The notes beneath the pieces were generated by a model. That model had not been told where the DNA came from. It worked only from the letters and a program-made list of their open reading frames with translations, and made no database searches. Positions 48,035 to 62,575 of a stretch of 64,000 bases of DNA are shown piece after piece. The DNA lies in contig NZ_JAOWKZ010000004.1 of NCBI RefSeq assembly GCF_025751495.1, positions 1-64,000 on the forward strand, written 5' to 3'. Each line of letters opens with the position of its first letter. The first letter of the stretch is position 1. The translations under genes and the position numbers were made by a program. The stretch comes from Albidovulum litorale (GTDB taxonomy: Bacteria > Pseudomonadota > Alphaproteobacteria > Rhodobacterales > Rhodobacteraceae).

Positions 48035-48414
48035 TTCGCGCCAGTGGCCGGACTACGCAACGCGGCGACACGCACCATGGCGGCCAGGATGGCATGCGAC
48101 AGGACGGGTCCCCGGCCGATCCCGATCATGAAATCGTCGTCGAGCGTATCAGACCGGCGCAAAGTGCAGGTCCAGTGCCCGTCGGCGTCATTGGTGCGGC
48201 CTTTCAGGCTGATCGACCAGTCCGGCAAAGCGAGGTCGACAAGATGAATTGCTTCGTCGCTGGACTGGATCACCGGCATCCGGTCGGCGGGCCATCTGTC
48301 CTTCAACGGTACAAGTGGCCGGATCAGCCCGAGCACGGCGGTGGCGGTTTCAGGGCTTAGATCAGCCGACCCCTCAATCGTGACGGCGATCCCTTCGATG
48401 TCAGCTCTGGTCAT
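48031..48414 (-). CDS. Hypothetical protein, 127 aa
   Basis: A small acidic-to-neutral protein of unknown family, without signal peptide or membrane helix. The middle has a beta-rich AIHLVDLALPDWSISLKG segment and an ADGHWTCTLRRSD stretch. The C-terminal helix GRGPVLSHAILAAMVRVAAL resembles the tail of small stress-island proteins found beside LonB genes, but I cannot name a family. It is divergent from the LonB gene and ends 93 bp before the BMP operon. GAGAGAACG before the ATG can act as a ribosome binding site, supporting a real gene. Confidence 0.6.
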   Translation of the reverse strand: MTRADIEGIAVTIEGSADLSPETATAVLGLIRPLVPLKDRWPADRMPVIQSSDEAIHLVDLALPDWSISLKGRTNDADGHWTCTLRRSDTLDDDFMIGIGRGPVLSHAILAAMVRVAALRSPATGAN

Positions 48415-48464
48415 CGTTCTCTCCGTGTCTGCGGTTAAGAATAGCCCGTCGTTCGGCGAGTTGA

Positions 48465-48478
48465 TTGAGCGGGATCAA
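48465..48478. promoter_or_regulatory. FNR/FnrL-like site upstream of LonB
   Basis: TTGAG-CGGG-ATCAA matches TTGAT-N4-ATCAA at 9 of 10 fixed positions. It is 51 bp before the LonB start, consistent with activation from about -41. Confidence 0.6.
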
Positions 48479-48529
48479 TCGGCACGGGCATCGCGGTGGG
48501 ATACTCGCGGAGTGGAACACGAGGACGAT

Positions 48530-50968
48530 ATGGCCAATCCGGTTGGACCAGCACCGCTGCCAGTCGTGAAACTCTCGGCGCCTGTCAAAGCCGAGGACTT
48601 CACGTTCTCGACCAGCGCCGAGCTTCACGGAACTAACTGGATCGGACAAGACCGGGCCCTGGGCGCGCTTCGCATGGCCGCAGAGATGCGCCACAGCGAC
48701 TTCAATGCCTTTGTCCTTGGAAACCCCGGCAGCGGACGCCGCCGGATGACCCGGGCGATTCTTGCTGAGGCGGCAATGAACCGGCCGCGCCCGGCGGACT
48801 GGGTCTATGTCAACAATTTCGACGCGCCCGACAAACCGGTCGCGATCGAACTGCCCCCGGGAATGGCAACGAAGCTTCGCAAGGCGATGGAAGAGCTGAT
48901 CGACGAACTGGCCAACGACATACCGGCGCTGTTCGACTCGGAAGACTATCAGACCCGCCGACGCAGCATCGAACAAAGCTATACCGAAGAGCATGAAGCG
49001 GAGATGAGCAGGGTCTTCGAACAGGCCCGCGCACGCGACGTCGCCATCCTTCGCACACCCATGGGGTTTACTGTCGTCGGTACCCGTGACGGCGAGGTCA
49101 TGACGCCCGAGAAATACCGGAACCTGAGTGAGGATGAACAGGCGGCCATTGACGCGGCGGTCGATGAGACCGAGCAGGAACTGGCGGCGGCACTCAAGGC
49201 GGTGCCCGGGCGCGAAAAGCAGCACCGGCGCGATGTCGAGGACCTGAACTACGCGATGGCGACCGGCGGCGTCGATGTCGCCATCCGTACCTTGCGCGAG
49301 TCATTTTCCGGGATTCAGGCGGTAACGGATTATCTCGATGCGGTGCGCGGTGACCTGATCGAGAATGCGGAGATTTTTCTGGTCCGTGAGGATGGCGCCG
49401 AGGCCGGACCGTTCCCTGTTGCGACGACACGGCATTATGCAAAGCCGCGGTTCCAGCGCTACGCGGTCAACGTCGTCGTTGCGCAGGAGGGGGATGGCGA
49501 AAACGGTGCGCCAGTGATCGAGGAGGACCTGCCCACGCTCGCCAACCTCATCGGCCGGATCGAATACGCCTCGGAAATGGGGGCGTTGGTGACGAATTTC
49601 ACCATGATCAAGCCGGGTGCCCTGCACCGCGCCAATGGCGGATTTCTCATTCTCGACGCACGCCAGATCCTGTCCGAACCTTTTGCCTGGGATGCGCTGA
49701 AACGCTGCCTCAGAACCCACGAGATCGCGATCTATTCTCCCGCCGAACGGCTCAGCCTGATTTCCACCGTCTCGTTGGCACCCGATCCGGTGCCGCTGGA
49801 TGTACGAGTGATCCTGTTGGGCGAAAGGATCTTCTATTATCTGCTCGCCGCGCTCGATCCGGATTTTGCCCATCTTTTCAAGCTTGAGGCCGATTTCAAC
49901 GACCATATCACAACGGGCAGCGATGGTTCCGGCGCCTATGCGGCGATGATCGCGGAGATCGCGCGGGATGGTGGTCTCAGGCCACTCGATCCCCCTGCGA
50001 TGGCGCGGATCTTCAACGAAAGTCACCGCATGACGGGCGACGCGGAGCGACTGTCATTGAGCCTTGACCATCTTTCCGATCTTCTGCGGGAAGCCGACTT
50101 CTGGTCGGGTTCTGAGGGGCATGACGTTATCGGTGCCGAGGCGGTCGAAAAGGCTGTTGCCGAGCGCGAGTTCCGAGCCGGGCGGCTGCGCGAGCTTGGC
50201 GCGGAGGCGATCCTGCGCGAAACCCTGATGATCGACACCGATGGCGTACGGGTTGGTCAGATCAACGCGCTGTCAGTTCTGGAGATCGGCGGTACCCGTT
50301 TCGGCCTGCCGTCGCGGCTGACCGCTCGGACCCGGCTGGGCACCGGCAAGGTCGTTGATATCGAGCGTGAGACCGAACTGGGCGGCCCGATCCATTCCAA
50401 GGGTATGCTGATCCTTCAGGGCTATCTTGCGGCGGCCTATGCCACCGATGCGCCGATGTCGCTCTGGGCCAGCCTCGTCTTCGAACAGAGTTATGGCGGC
50501 GTCGATGGCGACAGCGCCTCGGCAGCTGAGCTGCTGGCGATAATCTCGTCGCTGTCGGACGTGCCGATCGACCAATCCTTGGCGATCACCGGTTCCGTCA
50601 ACCAGTTCGGCGACATTCAGGCAATTGGTGGTGTGAACGAAAAGATCGAGGGCTTCTTTGACATTTGCGCCGCGCGTGGCCTGACCGGGCGCCAGGGCGT
50701 TCTGATTCCGGCGGCCAACGTAAAGCACCTCTCGCTCCGCCGTCGTGTGATCCAGGCGGTGGAGGCCGGTCAGTTCCGCATATTGCCGATGCGAACGATT
50801 GCCGACGGCATCGAAGCGCTGACCGGGACAGTCGCAGGAACACGCTTGCCGGATGGTCTTTATCCGGAGGGCAGCGTGAACCGCCGCGCCGAAGATCAAT
50901 TGCGCGCCTTTGCCGCGAAGCGCAAGGCATTCGGACGGGCGGGCAAGGAGGTCAGGACAGATGTCTGA
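48530..50968 (+). CDS. LonB-type ATP-dependent serine protease
   Basis: An 812-aa AAA+ protease of the proteobacterial LonB/AAA_32 family. The N-terminal AAA domain has FVLGNPGSGRRRMTRAIL; the expected GKS/T of Walker A is GRR, so the nucleotide site is atypical. A long coiled segment (about 120-260) follows, then HRANGGFLILDARQIL (Walker B-like). The C-terminal Lon domain has the catalytic Ser in GVDGDSASAAELLAIISSLS and catalytic Lys in GGVNEKIEGFFD. It probably degrades selected proteins under stress. The start at 48530 is set by the family N-terminus and GGACGAT upstream. It overlaps the next gene by 8 bp. Confidence 0.87.
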   Translation: MANPVGPAPLPVVKLSAPVKAEDFTFSTSAELHGTNWIGQDRALGALRMAAEMRHSDFNAFVLGNPGSGRRRMTRAILAEAAMNRPRPADWVYVNNFDAPDKPVAIELPPGMATKLRKAMEELIDELANDIPALFDSEDYQTRRRSIEQSYTEEHEAEMSRVFEQARARDVAILRTPMGFTVVGTRDGEVMTPEKYRNLSEDEQAAIDAAVDETEQELAAALKAVPGREKQHRRDVEDLNYAMATGGVDVAIRTLRESFSGIQAVTDYLDAVRGDLIENAEIFLVREDGAEAGPFPVATTRHYAKPRFQRYAVNVVVAQEGDGENGAPVIEEDLPTLANLIGRIEYASEMGALVTNFTMIKPGALHRANGGFLILDARQILSEPFAWDALKRCLRTHEIAIYSPAERLSLISTVSLAPDPVPLDVRVILLGERIFYYLLAALDPDFAHLFKLEADFNDHITTGSDGSGAYAAMIAEIARDGGLRPLDPPAMARIFNESHRMTGDAERLSLSLDHLSDLLREADFWSGSEGHDVIGAEAVEKAVAEREFRAGRLRELGAEAILRETLMIDTDGVRVGQINALSVLEIGGTRFGLPSRLTARTRLGTGKVVDIERETELGGPIHSKGMLILQGYLAAAYATDAPMSLWASLVFEQSYGGVDGDSASAAELLAIISSLSDVPIDQSLAITGSVNQFGDIQAIGGVNEKIEGFFDICAARGLTGRQGVLIPAANVKHLSLRRRVIQAVEAGQFRILPMRTIADGIEALTGTVAGTRLPDGLYPEGSVNRRAEDQLRAFAAKRKAFGRAGKEVRTDV

Positions 50969-51707
50969 GACCGGTTCGCCGCCTTTCCGCGTGATCCTGA
51001 GCGCGACATGTTACGCCGATGCCGAAGCGGCGTTGCATCTGGCCGTTCTTCTGGCGCGACAGGTCGGCGCGGGTCTGCACGGCCTCTTGGTCAGCGATGA
51101 GGCGATCCTTGAAGCCGCCAGACACCCGCATGCCCGCGCTGTTTCTTTCTCCGGGCAAGCCGTGTCCCAGGTAACGGTCGAAACCATGCGCGCCGCCTTC
51201 CGCGCTGACGCACGGCTTTTTGAGAAGCGGCTGGTTCAGGCGGCGCGGGATGCGGTTCTCGACACCGGGTTCAGTGCCATCGGCGGTCGATTGATGGCGG
51301 TGCTTGCACAGATCACCGGCGCCAGGGATATCGTCGTCGTCGGGTTCCGCAGGGCGCTGCGGGAGGGCGACGCGCTGATCCTGGTTCTCGGCGACCGCAA
51401 CCCCGACAGCGGCCAGCTGTCTCTCGCCCTCCATCTTGCTGCCGCTGCCCACAAGCGTCTTGTCGTCTTCGCCACGCCACGGTGGGAAGAAGAGATCGTC
51501 GCAGCATTTCGCCGCGGTAGCGGTGTAAGGCACAACGAATACCGCCCCTATCTCGGGACCGGGAACCTGTTGCGTGAGCTTGAGCGGATGAGCCCCGCCG
51601 CCTTGATCATCGCAACCGGCCAAGACGAGGCGCTTCCTGTCACAGCCTTGATCAACGCGGCGCGCTGCCCGGTGATCCTGACGGGCCCCGCAACGGAGGG
51701 AAAATAA
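50961..51707 (+). CDS. UspA-like stress protein
   Basis: A 248-aa protein resembling a diverged universal stress protein pair. The first half has VILSATCYADAEAALHLAVL and LARQVGAGLHGLLVSDEAIL, a Usp-like strand-helix-strand with a Rossmann-like order. The C-terminal half (LALHLAAAAHKRLVVFA to LPVTALINAARCPVILTGPA) repeats a similar pattern, ending as UspA domains end. The Usp ATP-binding G-x2-G-x9-G motif is not clear. It is translationally coupled to LonB. The function is inferred from fold likeness and context. Confidence 0.6.
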   Translation: MSETGSPPFRVILSATCYADAEAALHLAVLLARQVGAGLHGLLVSDEAILEAARHPHARAVSFSGQAVSQVTVETMRAAFRADARLFEKRLVQAARDAVLDTGFSAIGGRLMAVLAQITGARDIVVVGFRRALREGDALILVLGDRNPDSGQLSLALHLAAAAHKRLVVFATPRWEEEIVAAFRRGSGVRHNEYRPYLGTGNLLRELERMSPAALIIATGQDEALPVTALINAARCPVILTGPATEGK

Positions 51708-51763
51708 TCTCTGGCGCGCTGCTGGCCAAATGTGAAGGTCTGAAATGCAGCGAGGATCGGACA

Positions 51764-51777
51764 GTTGTCGGGACAAC
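51764..51777. repeat. Short palindrome upstream of phosphoribosyltransferase gene
   Basis: GTTGT-CGGG-ACAAC, 23 bp before the ATG at 51801. The geometry is near an FNR-type site (5-4-5) but the bases differ from TTGAT/ATCAA, so no regulator is assigned. Confidence 0.4.
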
Positions 51778-51800
51778 GGGATCAAATCGGGAGATGAATT

Positions 51801-52460
51801 ATGCGCTATCGCGATCGAACGGAAGCCGGCGAAAGGCTGGCACAGGAGCTTAAGGCGCTCGACTTGCCCGACCCAGTGGTCCTTGCCCTTCCCCGGGGCG
51901 GCGTTCCGGTTGCCTATGAGGTGGCGCGCGAGCTTGCCGCGCCGCTTGATCTTGTCATGGTGCGCAAGATCGGCGTGCCTTCTCAGCCAGAGCTTGCCGC
52001 CGGCGCGGTTGTCAACGGTGCCAATCCCGAGATCGTGGTGAATGAGGAGGTCGCCCGCCATGCGCGACTGGTGCCTGCCGACATCGAGAGGCTGGCTGAA
52101 GCACAGCTGGACCTGATCCGCGAACGCCGGGGGCTTTATCTGAAAGGCCGCGTGCAGGTGCCGCTATCGGGCCGCACTGCCGTCGTCGTCGATGACGGCA
52201 TTGCCACGGGCGCGACGATGCGGGCGGCACTGAAGGCGGTGCGGCGGCAGGCACCCGCACGAATTGTGCTTGCAGTGCCGGTCGCGGCGCCCGAGACGCT
52301 TGAGGCGATGAAGAAAGAGGCCGATCTGATCGTCTGCCCGAATGTGCCGACCTATCTCGGCGCGATCGGGGCGTTCTACGTCACCTTCGATCAGACTTCG
52401 GATGACGAGGTCATCCGGCTTCTCGATGCGGCGGCTGAGCGGCCCGCTTCAGGGCAATGA
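51801..52460 (+). CDS. Phosphoribosyltransferase family protein
   Basis: A 219-aa type I PRTase. The PRPP loop VVVDDGIATGATMRAAL is intact, with ALPRGGVPVAYEVA and MVRKIGVPSQPELAAGAV ahead of it. This subgroup is found alone or fused to hydrolases in stress islands with Hsp20, DUF2267 and PEP synthase genes; the substrate base is unknown. The 3' end overlaps the convergent antiporter gene by 50 bp. A GGGAGAT ribosome binding site precedes the start. Confidence 0.85.
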   Translation: MRYRDRTEAGERLAQELKALDLPDPVVLALPRGGVPVAYEVARELAAPLDLVMVRKIGVPSQPELAAGAVVNGANPEIVVNEEVARHARLVPADIERLAEAQLDLIRERRGLYLKGRVQVPLSGRTAVVVDDGIATGATMRAALKAVRRQAPARIVLAVPVAAPETLEAMKKEADLIVCPNVPTYLGAIGAFYVTFDQTSDDEVIRLLDAAAERPASGQ

Positions 52461-53589
52461 CGGTGATCAGCGGGCCAACGACCTCAAAGACGACGGTGCT
52501 GGCGATGGTGATCCCGAGGATCACTTCGGCCCGCTCGGGAAAGCGTTCACCGGCAATCAGTGCCATGCCGATGGCAACGCCCGCCTGCGGCATTAGCGCG
52601 AGACCGGAAAGCCACCCCTCGCGGGCCGGCAGACCGGCAATTGCCCCGCCGATCCATCCGCCGGTTACCCGTGACAGGGCGCGCAACCCGATATAGGCGG
52701 CACCGGCGAGGCCAAGCCCCCCAAGCGATGTGGGGTCGAGTGAGGCACCCGCCATCACGAAAAGAAGCAGCATGAACGGCCATTCGATTCGCTCGATTTC
52801 GTGGAACGGCCGGTCGTGGTGGCGGGCGAAATGGGCAATGACGGTGCCGCAGACCATGCCGGTCAGAAGAAAGGAAAGCCCGAGATAGAGCGACAATCCG
52901 GTGCAGAGAAAGACGAGGCCAAGCGCCTCCATCAGCGTCGGCTCCCCGGGTTTGAGGCGGCCGGTCAGATAGGCGGCGGGCAGGCCGATTGCCGCGCCAA
53001 GAGCGATGGACCCGCCAAGATCCACCAGCGTCTGGAACAAAGGCCCGGGTGTCGGCCCGCCCATGGTCAGATCGGCAATCAGAATAAGAAGGCTGAACAG
53101 AAGGATGCCCCAGGCGTCGTCGATGGCCACGATGCCAAGGATGTTTGTCGCGAAGCGTCCCTTTGCGCCGACGGACCGGATCACCTCATGTGTGGCTGCC
53201 GGATCGGTCGCGACGGCAAGTCCCGCCAGCATCAGCGCCAGCACCGGATCGCCGGACAGAAGCCATAGCCCCACCCCAACAAATGCGGCCGAGGTCAGGA
53301 CTACTGCCAGTGACAGCGTCAGGATCTCGCGCCCATGTGCGTGCAGCGTTTCGGGCTTGAGCCTGCCGCCCAACAGGAAGGCAACCATCGTCAGGGCGGT
53401 TGGGGCAACCGCGTCATCAGTCCCGGCAAGCGCCGTGGGCAGAAGATCCAGACCCGGCGGTCCGATTGCCACGCCCAACAGGATCAGCAGGGTGACCCGC
53501 GGCACATGCGCCCGGCGTTCGAGGGCGTCGATGCCGATGCTGGCGAGGAACAAGGCTCCGATAGCAAGAACGGTTAGCGCTTCTCCCAT
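52411..53589 (-). CDS. Cation/proton antiporter (CPA family)
   Basis: A 392-aa Na+/H+ exchanger-type membrane protein with about 12 helices. Conserved regions are VPRVTLLILLGVAIGPPGLD, SGDPVLALMLAGLAVATDPA and NILGIVAIDDAWGILLFSLL, the last holding the Asp-Asp ion-binding pair of CPA proteins. It lies 4 bp after the CBS-protein gene at the end of the Na+-NQR operon, so it may exchange Na+ and H+ across the membrane charged by the pump. The ATG at 53589 is chosen; a longer form from 53613 would overlap the CBS gene. Confidence 0.85.
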   Translation of the reverse strand: MGEALTVLAIGALFLASIGIDALERRAHVPRVTLLILLGVAIGPPGLDLLPTALAGTDDAVAPTALTMVAFLLGGRLKPETLHAHGREILTLSLAVVLTSAAFVGVGLWLLSGDPVLALMLAGLAVATDPAATHEVIRSVGAKGRFATNILGIVAIDDAWGILLFSLLILIADLTMGGPTPGPLFQTLVDLGGSIALGAAIGLPAAYLTGRLKPGEPTLMEALGLVFLCTGLSLYLGLSFLLTGMVCGTVIAHFARHHDRPFHEIERIEWPFMLLLFVMAGASLDPTSLGGLGLAGAAYIGLRALSRVTGGWIGGAIAGLPAREGWLSGLALMPQAGVAIGMALIAGERFPERAEVILGITIASTVVFEVVGPLITVIALKRAAQPPHREAG

Positions 53590-53593
53590 TGCC

Positions 53594-53992
53594 TCACCTC
53601 CATTGATCGGCAAGCGCCCGCAGCACGTCGGCCCGGCTGATCTGACCCACGAGCCGTCCGCCCTGCATCACGGGAAACCGGCGATAGGGGCCTTTCAGAA
53701 ATGCTTCGGTCGCCGCGACGATGTCCAGATCTGCGTCAAGCGTGTGGACATTGCCGCTCATATAATCGGCGACGCTGTCGCCCCACTCCTGATAGTAGCT
53801 CGCGTTGAGTGCAGCGCGCAGGCAATCCTTCTTGGAAAGAACGCCGACCAGTTGCCCGCTGCTGTCCACGACAGGTGCCCCGGAAATGTTCCGGTCAAGC
53901 AGCAGTTTCATGGCCCGGTTGATCTCCGTGTCCGGTGCCAGCGTCACAAGGTTCCTGGCCATGTAGTCGGCGACTTTTGGGCGATCAGTCAT
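53594..53992 (-). CDS. Two-CBS-domain protein
   Basis: A 132-aa protein made of two CBS motifs: VADYMARNLVTLAPDTEINR with ISGAPVVDSSGQLVGVLSKK, and VADYMSGNVHTLDADLDIVA with YRRFPVMQGGRLVGQISRAD. CBS pairs bind AMP, ATP or similar ligands and regulate partners. Located between nqrM (8-bp overlap) and the antiporter (4-bp gap), it may give adenylate control over the antiporter. The start at 53992 matches the conserved domain start. Confidence 0.85.
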   Translation of the reverse strand: MTDRPKVADYMARNLVTLAPDTEINRAMKLLLDRNISGAPVVDSSGQLVGVLSKKDCLRAALNASYYQEWGDSVADYMSGNVHTLDADLDIVAATEAFLKGPYRRFPVMQGGRLVGQISRADVLRALADQWR

Positions 53993-54161
53993 CCTCGCAC
54001 CCTTCCTGCCGGTGGCGCGGGCACGCCGCGCAGGTTGCTCCGGGGATGCAGGACAACCCACCGCATGAGCCTGCGGGCGGACGGCGCCCGAAAAACCGGC
54101 CAATCGCGAGCCCGGCAAGGGCGAGGAGCGTGACTGCTAGGGTGGCTAGGAAACTGGTCAT
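53985..54161 (-). CDS. nqrM: Na+-NQR maturation protein NqrM
   Basis: A 58-aa protein, one N-terminal membrane helix (FLATLAVTLLALAGLAIG) followed by GSCGGLSC and further Cys in ATCAACP and EGCED. This is the DUF539/NqrM pattern (a single helix, then a Cys-rich tail with SCGG). NqrM is needed to assemble the iron centre held by NqrD and NqrE Cys residues. It sits directly after apbE, the flavin-attaching maturase, where nqrM is usually found. The tail has six Cys, somewhat more than usual. Too short for most gene callers' default cut-offs. Confidence 0.88.
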   Translation of the reverse strand: MTSFLATLAVTLLALAGLAIGRFFGRRPPAGSCGGLSCIPGATCAACPRHRQEGCEDD

Positions 54162-54170
54162 GCGATGGTC

Positions 54171-55124
54171 CTATTCTAAGACGTGGCGTGGGAAGGTGCC
54201 TGTCATGGATTCGCTGTAGGCGGGACCATGACCGGCAAGGAACAGGGCGTCGATGCCCTTCGCCCGGGCAAGCTCCGGCCCGGCTTCTGGGCCGAGGACG
54301 AGCAGCGCTGTCGCCAGCGCGTCTGCCTGTTCGGCCGTCCCGGCCAGCACCGAGACCGCGGCAAGGCCGCGCGTCGCGGGCCGTGCGGTGCGCGGGTCGA
54401 TGACGTGGCTCAGCCCCAGCCGCGGATATCCATTCGCCCTGTGTCCCGATGTGGCCAGCGCCATGTCGTGAGGCCTGACGATGCGCTGCGCCGTCCCTCC
54501 GCCGGGAGTTTCCACCGCGACCAGCCAGTCGCGCCCTTCCGGATGACGCCCCCGGCATGCCACCTCGCCACCAAGCTCGATCAGGAAATTCCGGTGCCCG
54601 AGAATTTCAAGCGCCACAACCATCCGGTCGAGCGCATACCCCTTGGCAATGCCGCAAAGGTCGATGGTCAACTCGGGCATGGCCTTGCGAATGGCATCCG
54701 GGCGCGCATTCAGATCGGCGGGATCACCTGCCCCCTTTCCCGCTATCGGGCCAAAGCCATAGCGGTGGACCAACGGGCCGACCGTGGGGTTGAAGGCGCC
54801 ACCGCTTAACCGCGAGACGTCCAGCGCATTCGAAAGCGTTTGGGCGAGAATTGGCGCGACCTTCTGCCAGCCAGTTTCGCGCGACATGTTGAACCGGGTC
54901 AGATCAGACTCCGCGCGATAGGGCGACATCGCCGCATCTACCGCGGCGATTTCGGACAAAAGCGCGTACCGCACGGCGTCGGAATCGATTCTGTCCGGCA
55001 AAACAACATGCCAGCTGCCGCCGAAGGCCAGTCCCGCCAACCGTGTCACCGCCTGCGCGGCACCAGCCGGCAGGGCGGCACTGGCGGCGGCGGACATGAG
55101 GAACAGGCGACGGGTCAGGTCCAT
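54171..55124 (-). CDS. apbE: FAD:protein FMN transferase (flavin maturase ApbE)
   Basis: A 317-aa ApbE-family enzyme that attaches FMN to Thr residues of target proteins such as NqrC and NqrB. The N-terminus has a twin-Arg-like TRRLFLMSAAASAALPAGA export signal, placing it outside the cytoplasm, where the NqrC target loop lies. Conserved blocks are SPYRAESDLTRFN, GGAFNPTVGPLVHRYGFGP, LCGIAKGYALDRM, FLIELGGEVACRG, ATSGHRANG, and VIDPRTARPA. Starts 3 bp after nqrF. Confidence 0.92.
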   Translation of the reverse strand: MDLTRRLFLMSAAASAALPAGAAQAVTRLAGLAFGGSWHVVLPDRIDSDAVRYALLSEIAAVDAAMSPYRAESDLTRFNMSRETGWQKVAPILAQTLSNALDVSRLSGGAFNPTVGPLVHRYGFGPIAGKGAGDPADLNARPDAIRKAMPELTIDLCGIAKGYALDRMVVALEILGHRNFLIELGGEVACRGRHPEGRDWLVAVETPGGGTAQRIVRPHDMALATSGHRANGYPRLGLSHVIDPRTARPATRGLAAVSVLAGTAEQADALATALLVLGPEAGPELARAKGIDALFLAGHGPAYSESMTGTFPRHVLE

Positions 55125-55127
55125 GTC

Positions 55128-56348
55128 TCAGCCTCCGAAATCGTCGTTGAAGATGGCGTCCGGTTCGACCCCGGCATCCGACAACATGGCAAGGACGGCC
55201 TTGATCATCAGGGGCGGGCCGCAAAGGTAGTATTCGCACTCCTCGGGCGCGGGGTGAGTGGCGAGGAAACGTTCGGCCACGACCGAATGAATGAACCCCC
55301 TTGGCCCGTCCCAGCCGTCCCCCGGGCGCGGGTCTGACAGGGCGACGGTCCAGCGAAAATTCGGATGTTCCGTGGCCAGCGCATCGAATTCGTCGGAGTA
55401 GAACAACTCATCCCGGTTCCGTGCGCCGTACCAGAAGCTCATGCGCCGCGCCGTGCCCAGCCGCTGCAACTGGTCGAGGATGATCGCGCGCAGGGGCGCC
55501 ATGCCGACCCCGCCGCCGATGAAGACCATCTCGCGCCCGGTCTCCTGCGCGCGAAAGCTGCCGAAGGGGCCCGAGACGGTGAGCCGGTCGCCGGGCTTCA
55601 CACAGAAGAGGTAGGACGACACCTTTCCGGGCGGCGCATCGGCAAGCTGTGGCGGGGGCAGGGCAAGACGGATATTGAAGACAAGGCGCCCGGCTTCGCT
55701 GTCCTCCAGCCGGTTCGAGATCGAATAGGCGCGGGTTTCCGGCTTACCACTATCGGAGTGCAGGGCGCGGATGGGTGCCCAGACCTTTGCGTGCGCATCG
55801 GGCACCTCAAGCATGTGGAAATCCAGCCGATAGGGCGGCGCGGTGATCTGGAAGAACGATCCGGCGGGCAATGCGGGCCTGGCATCTTCTGGCAGGTCCA
55901 CGACAACCTCGCGGATCAAGGGGGTAAGGAACCGTGCGGCGCTGACCGTGCAGTCATAGGACTTCGCGCCCGCCAGATCCTCGGGCAGATCGATCTCCAC
56001 ATCGCCCCGCAAAGTCACCTGACAGGCCAGCCGCAGACCCGCCGCGATCTCCGCCCGGCTCAGATGCTCCCGCTCGGTCGGCAGCGGTGCGCCGCCGCCC
56101 TGCGTGACCCGGACCCGGCACAGCCCGCAGGTCCCCGCACCGGCGCAGGCCGAGGGGATCAGGATGCCGCCATCCCCCAGTGCGGTCAGCAGCCGCTGGC
56201 CGGTGCGGGCGGCGATGTTTTCCGTCCCGTTGATCGTCACGGCCACGGGAAGTTCGGGCAGCAGAACCCGCCGCGCCCCCATGACAGCGAGCGCCAGTAG
56301 CAGAAGCAGGGCGGTCAGAAGCACGGTGCCAAGGAGGATCGCGGTCAT
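55128..56348 (-). CDS. nqrF: Na+-translocating NADH:quinone reductase subunit F
   Basis: A 406-aa entry subunit: NADH oxidation by FAD, then a 2Fe-2S centre. One N-terminal membrane helix is followed by a ferredoxin domain with Cys68, Cys74, Cys77 ([12 protein letters not shown]) and Cys109 (LACQV), exactly the NqrF spacing. The FAD-binding part has RAYSISN, and the NADH part has [12 protein letters not shown] and [10 protein letters not shown], ending with IFNDDFGG. The start at 56348 overlaps the nqrE stop (ATGA). Confidence 0.94.
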
Positions 56349-56947
56349 GGCGCCCCCCATCCTGCGACGGCAGAGAGGCCAAGCGACATGAGGCCGGTGA
56401 CCAGAAACGCCGAACCGAGGCCCTGAAGCCCTGCTGGGATCAGGCTGTATCTCAGCCGTTCGCGGATCGCTGCGAAGGTGACGATGGCAAGCGCCCAGCC
56501 GATCCCAGTGCCAAGGCCGTAGACCACGGATTCGGCGAAGCTGTAGCGGCGTTCGACCATGAAAAGGCTGGCACCCAGAATGGCGCAGTTCACGGTGATG
56601 AGCGGCAGGAAGATGCCAAGCGCCCGGTAAAGCCCCGGCGCGAAGCGATCGAGGGTCATTTCAAGGATCTGCACCATTGCCGCTATGACGCCGATGAAGG
56701 CGATGAGCCTGAGATAGGTCAGGTCGAGATCTGGCAGTCCCGCCCAGGCCCATGCGCCCTCGCTCAAGAGGTAGGTATGGATCAGGTTGTTCGCGGGCAC
56801 GGTAATTACCTGCACAACGATCAGGGCCAGTCCGAGCCCCGCCGCTGTTTCCACTCGCCGCGACACGGCAAGAAAGGTGCACATGCCGAGGAAGAACGAC
56901 AGCGCAAGGTTCTCGCCGATCATCGCGGTGAGGAAGAGGTCGCTCAT
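56345..56947 (-). CDS. nqrE: Na+-translocating NADH:quinone reductase subunit E
   Basis: A 200-aa integral membrane subunit with six helices, paralogous to NqrD. The two Cys that bind the intramembrane iron centre are conserved: Cys23 in [12 protein letters not shown] and Cys121 in [15 protein letters not shown]. Length and helices match the family. Translationally coupled on both sides. Confidence 0.94.
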
Positions 56948-57594
56948 GCGTCCTCCTCTTCGCTACTGAGTTGGTATTCCGGCCTTTCTACCTGCGCGGG
57001 ACGCCATGCGCGGATCGCCCAGATCAGAAGGCCGAGGATGAAGAAGGCCGCGGGCGCGCGCTGCATCAGGGCAAGGGTCGTGAACCCGTCAAGTCCGAGC
57101 ATCGGTGCCAGCGGCACACCGAGGATTGTCCCCAGGCCAAGCCCTTCACGCAGCGTTCCGACGACGATCAGGATAAGACTGTAGCCCAGCCCGTTGCCGA
57201 GCGCGTCGAGAAAGCTCTCCCCCGGCGGATGACGCATGGCAAAGGCCTCGGCCCGGCCCATGACGAGGCAGTTGGTGACGATGAGGCCGACGAAGACCGA
57301 CAGGCGCTGGCTCATCTCATAGGCGAAGGCGCGCAGCAGCCCGTCCATGACGATGACGAGGGCCGAGATGATGGTGATCTGGATGATCAGCCGCACGGAA
57401 TGGGGAATGTGGTTACGGATCATGCTGATGAGCGTGGCCGAGAGGCTGATCACCACGGTCAGCGCCAGCGACATGGTCAATGCGGTGGCAAGGGTCGTCG
57501 TCACTGCAAGCGCCGAGCAGATGCCGAGGATCTGCAGCGTGATCGGGTTTTCGTCGATCAGGGGGCGGGTCAGGCGGTCGGGCAATCCGGTCAT
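56944..57594 (-). CDS. nqrD: Na+-translocating NADH:quinone reductase subunit D
   Basis: A 216-aa membrane subunit with six helices. The iron-centre ligands are Cys26 in [12 protein letters not shown] and Cys109 in [18 protein letters not shown]. The start at 57594 fits the family N-terminus ([10 protein letters not shown]); an upstream extension in frame overlaps nqrC and is rejected. Confidence 0.94.
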
Positions 57595-57595
57595 G

Positions 57596-58393
57596 TCAGA
57601 AGCCCCTCTCGCGCAGCCGGTCGAGGAAGGGCCCGAAGCCCTGATCGCCCAGCCAGAAGGTAAGCATCGCGGTGATGCCGTTGCCGGTGCGGGTTGCGCC
57701 GGAAATGCCGTCGACCTCATAGGGCCCGGCTGCCCCCTGCGTGACGCGGATCATGATCCGGCCGTCGTCGTCCGTGATCCGGTGTCCGGGCCAGAGCGCC
57801 TGCCAGTCCGGTTCGGCGATCCGGGCGCCGATGCCGGGGGTTTCGGCCTGCTCGACAATGGTCAGCGCCGCAACCGTGTTCAGATCGGGCTCCAGCGCGA
57901 GATAGGCGCGGATCAGCGACTGATAGCCCATGCCCGAGACGGGAAGGACGACGAGGTGCAGTCTGCCGTCCCGTTCCAGCAGGTAAACCGGCGCATGGGT
58001 GGCGATGCGCTTCAGTCCGGCGGGGTCGGCTCCCGGCGGCAGGTCGCGGCTGGTGGCCGGGCCTTTCGCGGCTTCGTCCGGGTCGAAGCTGGCCGGGTCG
58101 ATTGCGGGGTCATACTGCCCGGACTGCAGATCGACGATGCGGGTTTCCAGCGTGTCGATCCCGGCCTCGACCATCAGGCCTCTGAGACCCGGCAGTGTGT
58201 TCAGCATGGCGTCGAGGCGCGCCTGACGTTCGCGTTCTACATGGACCTGCTGGTAGGGTTTCAGCACGGTCGCGGCGGTCGAAACCCCGAGTGCCGCGAC
58301 GAAGGCCACAAGAACGGTCATGCCCACGGCCTTGCGCGGATCGTCGTTCGCCATGGCGAACAGCCGCCACCAGGGGACAGGGGTTTCAGCCAC
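57596..58393 (-). CDS. nqrC: Na+-translocating NADH:quinone reductase subunit C
   Basis: A 265-aa subunit with one N-terminal membrane helix and a periplasmic FMN-binding domain. The flavinylation motif is GISGATRTGNGI, with Thr234 the FMN acceptor for ApbE. MGYQSLIRAYLALEPDLNTV and EQAETPGIGARI are further family blocks. It overlaps the end of nqrB by 8 bp. Confidence 0.93.
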   Translation of the reverse strand: MAETPVPWWRLFAMANDDPRKAVGMTVLVAFVAALGVSTAATVLKPYQQVHVERERQARLDAMLNTLPGLRGLMVEAGIDTLETRIVDLQSGQYDPAIDPASFDPDEAAKGPATSRDLPPGADPAGLKRIATHAPVYLLERDGRLHLVVLPVSGMGYQSLIRAYLALEPDLNTVAALTIVEQAETPGIGARIAEPDWQALWPGHRITDDDGRIMIRVTQGAAGPYEVDGISGATRTGNGITAMLTFWLGDQGFGPFLDRLRERGF

Positions 58394-59153
58394 GGGCGGA
58401 CCTCCTGCCGGTTCGGGCGCGGATCACGATGTCGTCGATCAGCGGCGCGACGAGCCCCGCGAGAAGTGCTGCAAAGACGACCGCCGACGCCAGACCCGTT
58501 GCACTGAAAAACGCGGCGAGAAGCCCAGCGACAATTCCATAGAGCCATCGCCCCGCCTGCGTCGCTGCCGAGGCAACGGGGTCCGCGACGAGGAAGGTCG
58601 CCGCGAAGAGCGCAGCGAGGAATGTCTCGGGTTCGGGTGCAGTCCCGTTCACCACGGCGAAGCCGGCGATGAGCCCGATGGCAAGCGCGACCAGAACCCG
58701 CCAGAAGACGAGCCCGAGGGCCAGCAGCAGGGCGAGGCCCGGCAGCGTTGCATAGCCGAGGTCGGGACCCGGCTCTGGCAGGACGGTGCCGGGAAAGGCG
58801 AAGATCAGGAAGGCCAGCGAAACTGCGGCTGCGTTGAGAAAGCCGAAGCCGCGCCCGCCGAAGACCTGTTCGCCGATCACGATGCCGAAGCTCAGGGCCA
58901 ATGCGAGGTGCCAGAGTGGCAGATCCGTTGGCGCCATCACGCTCACGATCAGCGCGGTGGCAATGCCGTGCCACGACGGTGGCTGGCGCCGCGCGCGGGT
59001 GAAGATCAGCTCCCAGATCAGGCTGACGACCAGCGCCGTGACGAGGACGCGCAGCGCCGCGTTGCCGTTCCGGTCCAGCATGGTTAGAACAGGGGGCAGC
59101 AGGGCCAGTGTCACCGCAAATGTAACCTGCCAGGGCTGGCGGATCGCGATCAT
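58386..59153 (-). CDS. nqrB: Na+-translocating NADH:quinone reductase subunit B, short form
   Basis: Only 255 aa, against about 410-415 in Vibrio. The conserved core is clear: IFTRARRQPPSWHGIATALI, LPLWHLALALSFGIVIGEQV, FGGRGFGFLNAAAVSLAFLI, then FVLVADPV-like TFLVADPVASAATQAGRWLYG and APLIDDIVIR. Two parts are missing: the N-terminal region with the first helices, and the segment between FAFPG and the next helix, where the covalent-FMN motif (S-G-A-T) lies in other NqrB proteins. The start overlaps the nqrA stop (ATGA), so the short start is firm. It still fits an NqrB/RnfD fold, but an FMN would have to be absent or bound otherwise. Confidence 0.85.
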   Translation of the reverse strand: MIAIRQPWQVTFAVTLALLPPVLTMLDRNGNAALRVLVTALVVSLIWELIFTRARRQPPSWHGIATALIVSVMAPTDLPLWHLALALSFGIVIGEQVFGGRGFGFLNAAAVSLAFLIFAFPGTVLPEPGPDLGYATLPGLALLLALGLVFWRVLVALAIGLIAGFAVVNGTAPEPETFLAALFAATFLVADPVASAATQAGRWLYGIVAGLLAAFFSATGLASAVVFAALLAGLVAPLIDDIVIRARTGRRSARG

Positions 59154-60388
59154 CCTTCCGCCTCCATCCGGTCGAGCACGGTCCGCAATTTCGCGGCGTA
59201 GTCGGTGCCGCTGGTGCACCGGTGGCTTGCCCGTAACATGTCCTCCTCGACAAGGGCACGCCCGCCCAGCTTCTCGACACTTTCGGCATCGCCGACCGTC
59301 AGTGCCCTCAGGAACGGGACCGCCGGAATGCCGACGGGCAGCGCGGTATCGAGGCCGGCGTGGGGCAGGATCGGCCGGAGTGCACCACTTGACGAGGTCA
59401 GCGCCTTCCACAGGTTTGACGTTTGCGGCGGCACGATTCGCGCGGCAGACGTATCGTAGCGGCTTAGCCAGAGCGCTTCGTTCCCGCTGATTGCAGGGCC
59501 GGAAATCAGGTTGGCGGCCGGGGGGCTGGAACCAACGAAAAGGTCATGAAGGCTCACGCCCAGAAGCGCCCGTTTCAGGACCGGCCTGCCGGAATGCGCA
59601 TCCGTGATCGCGACGATCCGTTCGCCGGGGAATTGCCCGGTGCGCAGAAGCTGACCGATGGCGACGACGTCCTGCCAGCCAATGGTCCAGACCGGCCGGT
59701 CCCGGACCTGACCGTGCAGCTGAGCAACATGATGGCTCGTCATTGATGTCATCGGGTGCGGCGCAAAAAACGCGCGGCGAATGCCCGGAGTTTCGATCTC
59801 AGGCAGCTCGAGTCCTTCGGGAAAGCAGGTAAGCACGGCACCCTCGGTCAGAAGCGTCAGAAGCCTGAGACCGGCGGCGAATTCTTCCGCAACCCCGGGA
59901 AGCAATGCGGCCGGGTCGGGTGCGCCGTCGAACCCGGCCATGGCGTGGACAAAGATGGCGTCCGCGCGGGCATCGGGCGGGGGGATGCGCCCGAAGGGCC
60001 GGCTGCGAAAGGCTGGCCACAGGCCCCGCGACAGGAGGAGCGCGCGCGCATCGCCAGCGGTTCCGACGCGGATGGGCGCGGATGCCGCCTTCTCAGCCTT
60101 ATCGCCGTCAAGCTCGACGATCAGTGCCGAAAGTCGCCGCCCTGCGGCGAAGGTGACGGACGCGACCCGGCCTGATGCCGGGGCGACGAAGGCAATGTCG
60201 GGGTGCTTGCGGTCGGTGAACAGAACCTGACCCGCGACAACGGCGTCCCCTTCCTTCACCCGCAAATCTGCCCGCAGGCCGGGATAGTCCGCGCCGAGCA
60301 GCGCGACCGAATGCAGGCGCACCGGCGGTTCGACGGCACCACCGACAGCCCGCACGGGACGACCTTTGATGAAAGGGGTAAGGAACAT
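59150..60388 (-). CDS. nqrA: Na+-translocating NADH:quinone reductase subunit A
   Basis: A 412-aa peripheral subunit. The N-terminal KGRPVRAVGGAVEPP, VALLGADYPGLRADLRVKEG and VLFTDRKHPDIAFVAPASG blocks are typical of NqrA, as are FVHAMAGFDGAPDP and HHVAQLHGQVRDRPVWTIGW. It is shorter than Vibrio NqrA (about 446) by some 35 residues. The ATG at 60388 is chosen because MFLTPFIKGRP aligns with the family; 60406 is an alternative. First gene of an operon that runs through to the antiporter at 52411. Confidence 0.9.
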   Translation of the reverse strand: MFLTPFIKGRPVRAVGGAVEPPVRLHSVALLGADYPGLRADLRVKEGDAVVAGQVLFTDRKHPDIAFVAPASGRVASVTFAAGRRLSALIVELDGDKAEKAASAPIRVGTAGDARALLLSRGLWPAFRSRPFGRIPPPDARADAIFVHAMAGFDGAPDPAALLPGVAEEFAAGLRLLTLLTEGAVLTCFPEGLELPEIETPGIRRAFFAPHPMTSMTSHHVAQLHGQVRDRPVWTIGWQDVVAIGQLLRTGQFPGERIVAITDAHSGRPVLKRALLGVSLHDLFVGSSPPAANLISGPAISGNEALWLSRYDTSAARIVPPQTSNLWKALTSSSGALRPILPHAGLDTALPVGIPAVPFLRALTVGDAESVEKLGGRALVEEDMLRASHRCTSGTDYAAKLRTVLDRMEAEG

Positions 60389-60445
60389 CCGGGACACTCC
60401 AGGCATCTTGTGGATGCAGGATGGTCGGTTCTGTCCGTGCGCACC

Positions 60446-60459
60446 CTGACACACATCAA
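60446..60459. promoter_or_regulatory. FNR/FnrL-like site between nqrA and the cytochrome gene
   Basis: CTGAC-ACAC-ATCAA matches TTGAY-N4-RTCAA at 9 of 10 fixed positions. It lies 57 bp before nqrA and 83 bp before the cytochrome start, so it could serve either or both. Confidence 0.5.
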
Positions 60460-60542
60460 TGACTGGCGTCGGGGAAGCCGCAGAATGGCCTGACATTCAG
60501 TCCATGGTCGTAATCGGCCAGCCAAGGCAGGAGTCCCTACCG

Positions 60543-61625
60543 ATGATCGCCCCCCGTATCCTCATCATTTCACTTCTTCTTGCGTGTGGAGGTGCCGCTT
60601 CCGTTTATGCTCAGGAGGATGCCGCTACGCTTTCGGGTGCGGTGGAGGCGTGGCTGAACTCACCCCATGCCCGACGCGGGTCGGAGTCCTTCACGCACTG
60701 GGACGAGGACGGAGAGATCCCACCGCAATGCGCGACCTGTCATTCAAGCATCGGCATGCGCGACTTCCTCGGCGGCGACGGCAGCACACCGGGGCAGGTG
60801 GATCATCCTACCGCCCTGGGAGCGCTGATCGACTGTACCACCTGTCATTCGGCGGCTGCAGCTGCGCTGGATCAGGTGACCTTCCCGAGTGGCGTAGCCA
60901 TCGGCGGGTTCGGCCCGTCGGCAACCTGCATGGTCTGCCATCAGGGGCGGACATCCGGAGACGGCGTCAATGCCACGACGGCCGGGCTTGACGACGACGC
61001 GGTGGCGCCGGAGCTTGGTTTCGTCAACGTGCACTACCGGGCCGCGGCGGCGAGTCTTCTCGGAACCGAGGTGCGCGGCGGCTTTGAATATCCGGGCAAG
61101 ACCTATGCCGGACGGTTTGCCCATGTTCCGAACTTCAACACCTGTACCTCCTGCCACGAACCGCATGCGCTTGAGGTGCGGGCCGAACCTTGCGCCGAAT
61201 GCCACAAGACCGCCAATCTGACCGCGATCCGGACGCGGCCCGCGGATGCGGACGGTGACGGCAATACCGGCGAAGGGGTGGCTTTCGAAATCACCGGCCT
61301 TCACGACGCACTTGGCCACGCGATCATGGCCTATGCTGCCGAGGTGGCCGGAAAACCGGTTGTCTACGCGCCAGACGCCTATCCGTATTTCTTCGTGGAC
61401 CTCAACGGGAACGGATCGGTGGATGCGGACGAGGCGGCCTATCCCAACCGCTATCAAAGCTGGACGCCGCGCCTTCTGAGGGCCGCTTACAATTACCAGT
61501 TCGTCGCGAAGGATCCCGGCATCTACGCCCACAATCCCAGCTACGCGATACAGCTTATGATCGACAGTCTCGACGATCTTGGAAAGGCGACCGGCCTTGA
61601 TACAGGTGCCTGGATCAGACCGTAG
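60543..61625 (+). CDS. Periplasmic pentaheme c-type cytochrome with EF-hand-like loops
   Basis: A 360-aa protein with a Sec signal peptide (about 1-23, ending VYA). Five CxxCH heme sites are seen, with Cys at 63 (CATCH), 98 (CTTCH), 129 (CMVCH), 201 (CTSCH) and 217 (CAECH). Two acidic loops resemble EF-hand/dockerin calcium sites: DADGDGNTGEGV near 236 and DLNGNGSVDADEA near 286. No named multiheme family was recognised. It probably carries electrons in the periplasm. Divergent from nqrA across a region with an FNR-like site, so co-regulation with the Na+ pump is possible. Confidence 0.85.
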   Translation: MIAPRILIISLLLACGGAASVYAQEDAATLSGAVEAWLNSPHARRGSESFTHWDEDGEIPPQCATCHSSIGMRDFLGGDGSTPGQVDHPTALGALIDCTTCHSAAAAALDQVTFPSGVAIGGFGPSATCMVCHQGRTSGDGVNATTAGLDDDAVAPELGFVNVHYRAAAASLLGTEVRGGFEYPGKTYAGRFAHVPNFNTCTSCHEPHALEVRAEPCAECHKTANLTAIRTRPADADGDGNTGEGVAFEITGLHDALGHAIMAYAAEVAGKPVVYAPDAYPYFFVDLNGNGSVDADEAAYPNRYQSWTPRLLRAAYNYQFVAKDPGIYAHNPSYAIQLMIDSLDDLGKATGLDTGAWIRP

Positions 61626-62012: not shown

Positions 62013-62498
62013 TCAGCTTTTGCCGATCTTGATCTTGCGTGTTCTGGATGCAGCCCCTTCGGGCTTGTCGATGTGCAGCTTCAGCACGCCGTCCTTGAAA
62101 CGTGCCTGCACCTTGCCTTCGTCCGGCGTAAAGCCGAGCGACACCGAGCGGCGGAAACTGCCATAGCGGCGTTCGACAACGTGGTAGTTTTCCTCCTTCT
62201 CCTCGTGATCGCTCGACTTCTCGCCCTTCAGCGTCAGAACGCCATCGGTAATTGACACATCGATGTCCTTTTCCGCGACACCGGGGATTTCAGCCGAGAT
62301 GTCGATGGCCGTGTCGGTTTCGGCGATATCGAGCGCCGGCATGAGACTGTCTTCGCTGCGGTCCCAGAGATCGCGGGCCGACATTGGCCAACCGGTGCCG
62401 AAGCGATCGAAAACACGTTCGATTTCGTCATGCAGGGACTTGAAAAAGGGACTGTCTTGCGCTGGCTCGATGCGGCTGGGAAGGGCTCTATGTTTCAT
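62013..62498 (-). CDS. Small heat-shock protein, Hsp20/alpha-crystallin family
   Basis: A 161-aa ATP-independent holdase chaperone. The alpha-crystallin domain spans about 55-150: LDIAETDTAIDISAEIPGVA, EKDIDVSITDGVLTLKGEKS, and the YGSFRRSVSLGFTPDEGKVQ block, followed by DGVLKLHIDKPE and an IKIG tail in place of the classic IxI. The ATG at 62498 has a good AGGAGAG; upstream codons in frame lack homology. Divergent from the bactofilin-like gene, with an FNR-like palindrome in between. A typical member of low-oxygen stress islands. Confidence 0.92.
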   Translation of the reverse strand: MKHRALPSRIEPAQDSPFFKSLHDEIERVFDRFGTGWPMSARDLWDRSEDSLMPALDIAETDTAIDISAEIPGVAEKDIDVSITDGVLTLKGEKSSDHEEKEENYHVVERRYGSFRRSVSLGFTPDEGKVQARFKDGVLKLHIDKPEGAASRTRKIKIGKS

Positions 62499-62575
62499 GA
62501 CGGCTCTCCTGACGGTATTCGGCTCCGCCCGACTCGGGGGCATGCGTGAGTCTAGGGCGGACTAGCCGGAAAGAC

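Follow-up and report, generated by a model that had tools for sequence, protein, structure and literature searches.

A short-NqrB class of NQR operon in the Rhodobacteraceae, linked to a pentahaem cytochrome c gene

Here, we describe a class of NQR operons in which NqrB has lost both its covalent-FMN site and the helices that close on quinone, and in which a gene for a pentahaem c-type cytochrome is, with few exceptions, linked to nqrA. The class is widespread in its family, apparently undescribed, and derived from NQR. Our starting point was one such operon in a window of 64,000 nucleotides (the whole stretch analysed) from Albidovulum litorale (Table 1). We favor, with moderate confidence, the reading that the operon encodes a low-oxygen-induced NADH:periplasmic-cytochrome oxidoreductase, in which the upward half of NQR would still work and the quinone-reducing half would not. 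At low oxygen, NADH electrons would probably leave the cell interior through the short NQR.

Table 1. Features of the short-NQR locus in the window.
Feature	Position	Strand	Remarks
Na+/H+ exchanger family protein gene (PF00999)	52411..53595	minus	directly downstream
Two-CBS-domain protein gene	53594..53992	minus	last gene of the conserved operon; in 49/54 loci
nqrM candidate	53985..54161	minus	19.3 bits vs Pfam cut-off of 22
apbE, FMN transferase	54171..55124	minus	
nqrF, NADH/FAD/[2Fe-2S] input subunit	55128..56360	minus	passes NCBIfam nqrF
nqrE	56345..56947	minus	two membrane [2Fe-2S] cysteines kept
nqrD	56944..57594	minus	two membrane [2Fe-2S] cysteines kept
nqrC, periplasmic FMN subunit	57596..58393	minus	FMN motif DGISGAT, Thr234; SGAT at about 57692-57703
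Short nqrB	58386..59153	minus	255 aa; covalent-FMN loop and N-terminal quinone-closing helices absent, riboflavin-site residues largely kept
nqrA	59150..60496	minus	real start probably near 60388, judged from relatives; below NCBIfam nqrA cut-off
FNR-type box CTGACACACATCAA	60446..60459		between nqrA and the cytochrome gene; 9/10 consensus positions
Pentahaem c-type cytochrome gene	60543..61625	plus	divergent from nqrA; five CXXCH; hydrophobic, signal-peptide-like N-terminus by eye

A short NqrB in an otherwise complete operon

All six genes, nqrA to nqrF, are present in one operon in the window. Four of the products pass their NCBIfam equivalog models: NqrC (TIGR01938, 148.3 bits against a cut-off of 144), NqrD (TIGR01939, 262 against 244.85), NqrE (TIGR01940, 285.2 against 247.55), and NqrF (TIGR01941, 430.4 against 295). 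NqrA falls below its cut-off (TIGR01936, 205.1 vs 321.05 bits) and aligns over residues 60-342 and 362-448 to Vibrio cholerae NqrA, with ~50 chain residues forming a break between the two parts. A sequence-only reading had described the operon as complete apart from NqrB, with the SGAT of NqrC (Thr234), the four iron-binding cysteines of NqrD/E, the cluster cysteines of NqrF, and the accessory genes apbE and nqrM all in place. We find nqrA, C, D, E, and F, each of these cofactor motifs, and (by Pfam) apbE; the remaining gene is only a candidate, which scores below the Pfam threshold and is nonetheless likely to be nqrM. The input subunits of RNF, RnfB and RnfC, are not found in the window operon, which has NqrF and NqrA instead.

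The NqrB of the window matches PF03116 in two pieces (profile positions 17-134 and 177-294), and the SGAT region is the gap between them. This is the protein's only Pfam domain, and no NAD-binding domain is fused to it. Its best match among PDB sequences is V. cholerae NqrB (94.8 bits to the best chain), with RnfD weaker at 42 bits. It stays below the NCBIfam cut-offs for NqrB (TIGR01937, 99.1 vs 349.9 bits; NF003756, 118.7 vs 414) and does not pass the RnfD model either (TIGR01946, 86.7 vs 207.05 bits). An AlphaFold prediction from three input sequences has ten helices at low confidence (mean pLDDT 58.6), and the best Foldseek matches of this low-confidence model are RnfD/NqrB (E ~1e-5, TM ~0.5).

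A printed alignment with 16 full-length NqrB sequences and that of V. cholerae refines the earlier description, according to which the first ~130 residues were absent. Transmembrane (TM) helix 1 is retained; what is lost is ~60 N-terminal residues (amphiphilic helices I and II, AH-I/II), a stretch of ~48 from TM1 to TM2, ~40 in the FMN loop, and ~11 more beyond it. The absence of the covalent-FMN segment from the 255-residue protein, also claimed from the sequence, is confirmed both by the gap in PF03116 and by a gap in 38/38 aligned short sequences. No copy of the missing segment was found elsewhere: a profile search of the genome found this NqrB as its sole PF03116 protein, and the frame upstream of the gene is nqrA coding sequence, so the missing part is not merely unannotated.

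Residues lost and kept across the class

We compared 38 short with 16 full-length NqrB sequences from the same family in V. cholerae numbering, with site assignments taken from PMC10643135 and PMC4014512. This alignment is without L046, L048, and L063; L067, L081, and L168 gave no NqrB hit, and a second batch of loci (L162-L181) and the plasmid loci stand outside it. All 38 short sequences have a gap at the FMN loop around Thr236 and at the tested helix positions of AH-I/II. Gly140 occurs in 0/38 and Gly141 in 7/38 (11 have Ala there), Asn156 and the Na+-entry residue Glu157 in 0/38, and Phe159 in 1/38. These lost positions are all invariant in the 16 full-length sequences, except those of the helices, which are present but variable. 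In the window protein, the N-terminal helices are absent, the equivalents of Gly140-Gly141 are Ser-Leu, and the positions of Asp52, Glu157, and the Na+-exit Glu hold Gln, Trp, and Pro. AH-I/II are described as closing on the quinone (PMC10643135), and changes at Gly140/141, even to Ala or Val, as disrupting the interaction with ubiquinone, RnfD being without the pair (PMC4014512). A counterpoint to this glycine requirement is a PDB entry titled as a G141A NqrB structure. Neither G141 nor T236 was found in PMC9325719.

Residues of the riboflavin site are largely kept in the short class: Gly198 in 38/38, Asp346 in 36/38 (the position is Glu in the 16 full-length sequences), Ala205 in 32/38, Thr162 in 29/38, Asn203 in 22/38, and Asn200 in 21/38. 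By its sequence, the window protein keeps Thr162, Gly198, Asn203, Ala205, Phe342, and Asp346, and has Gly for Asn200. The gate positions are relaxed (Phe338 in 17/38, Phe342 in 19/38), and Asp52 is aligned as Asp in 9/38. The Na+-exit Glu is aligned in only 2/38, with Asp or Glu within three columns in 31/38, in a region where the alignment is uncertain.

Judged from their motifs, the cofactors that link NADH to NqrC form an intact chain across the class. The FMN motif of NqrC is found in 57/57 (56 by pattern, the last as DGLTGAT), the NqrD/E cysteines in all 57 short tips of the tree described below except the contig-cut NqrE of L013, and the NqrF cysteine pattern in 53/54, the single miss being a broken locus. 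With the flavinylation site of NqrB gone and that of NqrC kept, the complex would carry one covalent flavin fewer, as had been proposed from the sequence; therefore the accepted path, in which NqrB FMN passes electrons from NqrC FMN to riboflavin, cannot operate in that form. That earlier reading had overlooked the loss of the quinone-pocket residues and of the Na+-entry Glu, and also the divergent pentahaem cytochrome gene.

Distribution and phylogeny of the short class

A genus survey found PF03116 in 6/22 genomes, all six with the same interrupted pattern, but with G005 matching only up to the gap edge. Across the family, taken as Rhodobacteraceae in the broad sense, PF03116 occurs in 118/394 genomes; sorted by the coordinates of their PF03116 matches, 57 are of the gap type and 63 carry full-length NqrB or RnfD, two having both. 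Five of the 57 turned out to be other things: one is an NqrB-NqrF fusion, and four are RnfD-like proteins that stand alone. The short-NQR type is thus present in ~52/394 genomes: the window's own, 48 with fetched NQR loci, and three unfetched (G214, G265, and G379, the first two being fragments). Among the 52 is G179, with a weak, partial PF03116 match and a fetched fragment that has NqrC-F without NqrB.

Outside the family, the short type is rare, on counts that are a lower bound. A class survey found it in 3/385 genomes: G528 and two that belong to the family. A phylum survey found it in at least 5/398, all within the family among the matches listed; this count is a lower bound for spread outside the family and excludes weaker hits (E ~1e-11 to 1e-17). 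A scan of contigs gave two named carriers, Defluviimonas aestuarii and a Hyphomicrobiales MAG, and further carriers are Shinella sp. HZN7, Paracoccus seriniphilus, Pseudooceanicola algae, Nitratireductor sp. OM-1, and Paracoccus aminophilus, in whose operon transposon genes follow nqrC. In 5/5 plasmid records examined, the short NqrB is labelled "RnfABCDGE type electron transport complex subunit D".

We fetched 54 short-NQR loci for comparison (four from the genus survey, 48 from the family survey, G528, and G1109; the window, L012, L013, and the contig fragment L048 are not in this count), and all six nqr genes were found in 49 of them. In a FastTree phylogeny of NqrD+NqrE (90 tips, 57 of them short, rooted on four RNF), the short class forms a single clade (SH-like support 0.953) that adjoins other NQRs. 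The tree is without L063, L163, L168, L166, and L086; L012 and L046 are one genome region and both enter the tree as well as the FNR-box, cofactor-motif, and exchanger counts. The suggestion of a variant class is upheld. An NQR/RNF intermediate, the companion suggestion, fits less well: NqrC, NqrD, NqrE, and NqrF all score as NQR, and in the NqrD+E tree the class stands with other NQRs.

Gene order also separates the two NQR types of the family. In the short class, apbE, the nqrM candidate, and the CBS gene come after nqrF, unlike in full-length Na+-NQR, where apbE is on the opposite strand in 15/16 operons of the family. A full-length NqrB with the short-class gene order was found in none of these 16, and the relatives that share the order have the short form. 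The CBS protein was rejected as a specific marker of the class: similar proteins are encoded in the fetched stretch of 12/16 full-length operons.

The recurrence of the type in ~52/394 genomes as one clade means that it is not an assembly error, and conservation across relatives likewise rules out a truncated nqrB. A functionless, degenerating operon or an assembly artefact is, taken together, a highly improbable account. Two fetched loci (L063 and L163) do look broken, with apparently split or stop-containing genes; against this stand the six nqr genes in 49/54 loci, the conserved cofactor residues and gene order, and the monophyly of the class.

Outside the family, locus L192 (2272-9746) encodes an NqrB of 371 aa in which SGAT is kept, the N-terminal helices, Glu157, and the exit Glu are missing, and Trp replaces Gly141; as in the short class, nqrF is followed by apbE and a CBS gene. 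It is an apparent intermediate NQR.

A pentahaem cytochrome shared with a second membrane system

A gene for the pentahaem cytochrome lies within 425 bases of nqrA in 48/54 fetched short-NQR loci and is divergent in 44. It was not found in the fetched stretches of control loci from the same family (0/16 full-length NQR and 0/4 RNF). At the level of whole genomes, 48/57 of the gap type and 19/337 others encode the cytochrome (E up to 1e-10; Fisher p ~8e-37, with genomes treated as independent though they are related). Five CXXCH motifs are present in 47/51 cytochrome copies; each of the remaining four is shortened, broken, or cut by a contig end.

In six of the 54 loci, no cytochrome gene is adjacent. 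For L049 and L050, the contig ends within 3 kb, and L050 has a divergent gene for an ethylbenzene-dehydrogenase-type haem protein in its place; L168 is a contig fragment. In L052, the cytochrome is elsewhere in the genome. Neither L054 nor L162 has one in the fetched stretch: L054 has SelO, and L162 has a tetrahaem ORF ~1.3 kb away, with no nqrA match found at the locus.

Searched against PDB sequences, the cytochrome had no match at E up to 1, and its AlphaFold model was unusable (pLDDT 35.6). Its C-terminal, non-haem part is highly conserved and includes a DxNxDGxxD-like calcium-loop motif; several Tyr, Phe, and His there are invariant. No conserved acceptor gene beside the cytochrome stood out among the loci compared.

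We also fetched 20 cytochrome loci without an adjacent NQR, three of them from genomes that also carry a short NQR. The divergent neighbor in 14/20 is a ferric-reductase/NOX-type membrane flavoprotein, a type confirmed by Pfam in 6/6 neighbors tested; it is absent at L142, L148, L149, L151, L159, and L161. This family is one that we take to carry NAD(P)H electrons outward to the periplasm. The flavoprotein holds the same divergent position beside the same pentahaem cytochrome family as the short NQR does, and differs in being a single membrane protein, non-homologous to NQR. One cytochrome family is thus paired with either of two unrelated NAD(P)H-oxidizing membrane systems, which is the main argument for electron export.

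Possible low-oxygen context and ion movement

We scanned 350 bases upstream of the genes for FNR-type boxes, accepting at least 9/10 positions of the consensus TTGAYNNNNRTCAA, and compared the counts with a rough null of shuffled dinucleotide blocks. Boxes lie upstream of the cytochrome gene in 26/51 short-NQR loci (14 perfect; ~1.1 expected) and at 15/20 cytochrome-only loci (11 perfect; 0.25 expected). Full-length nqrA is preceded by a box in 2/16 (none perfect; 0.57 expected). They are unevenly distributed by lineage, with 7/28 in the largest sub-clade (one perfect) vs 19/23 in the rest (13 perfect), the group to which the window's lineage belongs. These boxes indicate low-oxygen induction, presumably through FNR-type regulation.

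The host carries a gene for the 49-kDa subunit of complex I, and G119 and G145 each combine a short with a full-length NQR; the housekeeping role need not, therefore, fall to the short form. Genes for a LonB-like protease, a phosphoribosyltransferase, the Na+/H+ exchanger, and an Hsp20 flank the window operon (48341-53595 and 62013-62543), a neighborhood that looks like a low-oxygen or stress island.

A Na+/H+ exchanger homologue is encoded in 21/57 short-NQR loci, including the window (and counting L012 and L046, which are one genome), compared with 1/20 cytochrome-only and 0/20 control loci. The exchanger gene is a hint that the short complex may still move ions despite the lost Na+-entry Glu157.

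The same exchanger, and the reversibility in principle of the parts, would fit electron flow in the opposite direction, in which a periplasmic donor reduces the cytochrome and the complex pushes electrons to NAD+ using an ion gradient. We consider this improbable. The alternative partner of the cytochrome is of the ferric-reductase/NOX type, which, from knowledge of that family, points to outward NAD(P)H oxidation. FNR-type boxes would also be a better fit for electron disposal, and, the exchanger aside, no cluster of neighboring genes covers more than nine of the compared loci and no donor enzyme stood out.

A proposed model of electron export

In the export model that we favor, NqrF would oxidize NADH, and its [2Fe-2S] cluster would relay the electrons to the intramembrane cluster of NqrD/E; from there they would reach the periplasmic side at the covalent FMN of NqrC. 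The return leg (NqrB FMN, riboflavin, and quinone) would be disabled, because NqrB is without the flavinylation site, the pocket-closing N-terminal helices, and, usually, the Gly140-Gly141 pair. The FMN of NqrC would instead reduce the divergently encoded pentahaem cytochrome c, which would hand the electrons to a periplasmic acceptor. Induced at low oxygen, the complex could serve as an outlet for excess NADH. The retention of NqrB and NqrA would serve assembly and, perhaps, an ion movement that compensates for the electrons sent outward. A more specific version, in which the complex is a distinct NADH:pentahaem-cytochrome oxidoreductase with the quinone half severed, electrons exiting at NqrC, NqrB acting as ion path or scaffold, induction at low oxygen, and interchangeability with the NOX-type flavoprotein, is one that we put forward tentatively, as slightly short of an even chance.

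Our confidence in export rests on the quinone-site and linkage evidence. The largely kept riboflavin site counts against it: an NqrB that took no part in electron transfer would not need one. Also against it are Gly141, kept in some short sequences and replaced by Ala in others, the loci without an adjacent cytochrome, the sparser FNR-type boxes of the largest sub-lineage, and the exchanger genes; nor was a terminal acceptor found.

The riboflavin site could instead belong to a shortened quinone-reducing pump, in which NqrC FMN reduces NqrB riboflavin directly, the quinone site is remodeled, and the cytochrome is an independent partner. Two-subunit Nqr/Rnf-like analogues that also have no flavinylation Thr lend support to this alternative, since their extracytosolic FMN is proposed to sample a non-covalent flavin site (PMC11334425), as does the presence of all six subunits in most of the fetched loci. 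We nonetheless regard it as unlikely: Gly140, the quinone-closing helices, Asn156, and Glu157 are lost in all 38 sequences, Phe159 in 37, and Gly141 in 31, and a shortened pump leaves the linked cytochrome and its ferric-reductase alternative unexplained. The sequence-only reading was mostly right; pumping linked to quinone is the less likely account.

Relation to known systems

The short class shares with the Na+-NQR of V. cholerae homologues of nqrA-F in the same order, ApbE, the FMN motif of NqrC, the cysteines of NqrD/E, and the domains of NqrF. It differs in its short NqrB, from which the FMN-B site, the quinone helices, Gly140, and the Na+-entry Glu157 are missing, as Gly141 usually is; in that NqrB and NqrA miss their NCBIfam cut-offs; and in the linked pentahaem cytochrome. 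Because defining features of NqrB are absent, we do not regard the complex as Na+-NQR in the strict sense.

One of the two closest published parallels is found in Methanosarcina acetivorans, where an ion-pump-type complex is likewise tied to a multihaem c-type cytochrome: RNF is described as feeding the multihaem cytochrome MmcA (PMC6703419, PMC12174285) and is proposed to reduce it with Na+ translocation (PMC6703419). That archaeal system differs in being RNF rather than NQR, in its ferredoxin donor, and in the transmembrane MmcA with seven haems. Two-subunit Nqr/Rnf-like systems resemble the short class in having an NqrB/RnfD-like membrane domain without the flavinylation Thr, and one-way electron export to the periplasm has been proposed for them (PMC8238504; PMC11334425). 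They consist of a fusion of membrane and NAD-binding domains and one FMN protein, unlike the short NQR, which has all six subunits and its NAD domain on NqrF. In a mainly open-access literature, we found no description of a six-subunit NQR whose NqrB is without the FMN site, and none of a multihaem cytochrome linked to NQR.

To our knowledge, the redox step of NQR that moves Na+ is not settled. The short class would be a natural enzyme in which the upward electron path is intact and the downward path dismantled, so a measurement of ion movement would test the coupling site of NQR directly. If our reading is true, many alphaproteobacteria would have one more outlet through which NADH drives electrons into the periplasm.

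Related proteins also occur apart from NQR. Stand-alone, short RnfD/NqrB-like membrane proteins without NQR genes are encoded at L067 (7755-10065), L177 (640-1524), L178 (8194-10384), and L180 (8794-9687); the first adjoins a DUF2330 protein (Pfam), and the neighbor at L178 is similar by eye. In the same family, L179 (3057-5338) has an ApbE-like gene followed by an NqrB-like/NAD-binding fusion, which is of the two-subunit Nqr/Rnf-like type. On a Defluviimonas plasmid (L187, 8992-18090), a homologue of the cytochrome lies near PepSY, DUF2271, and ApbE genes rather than NQR.
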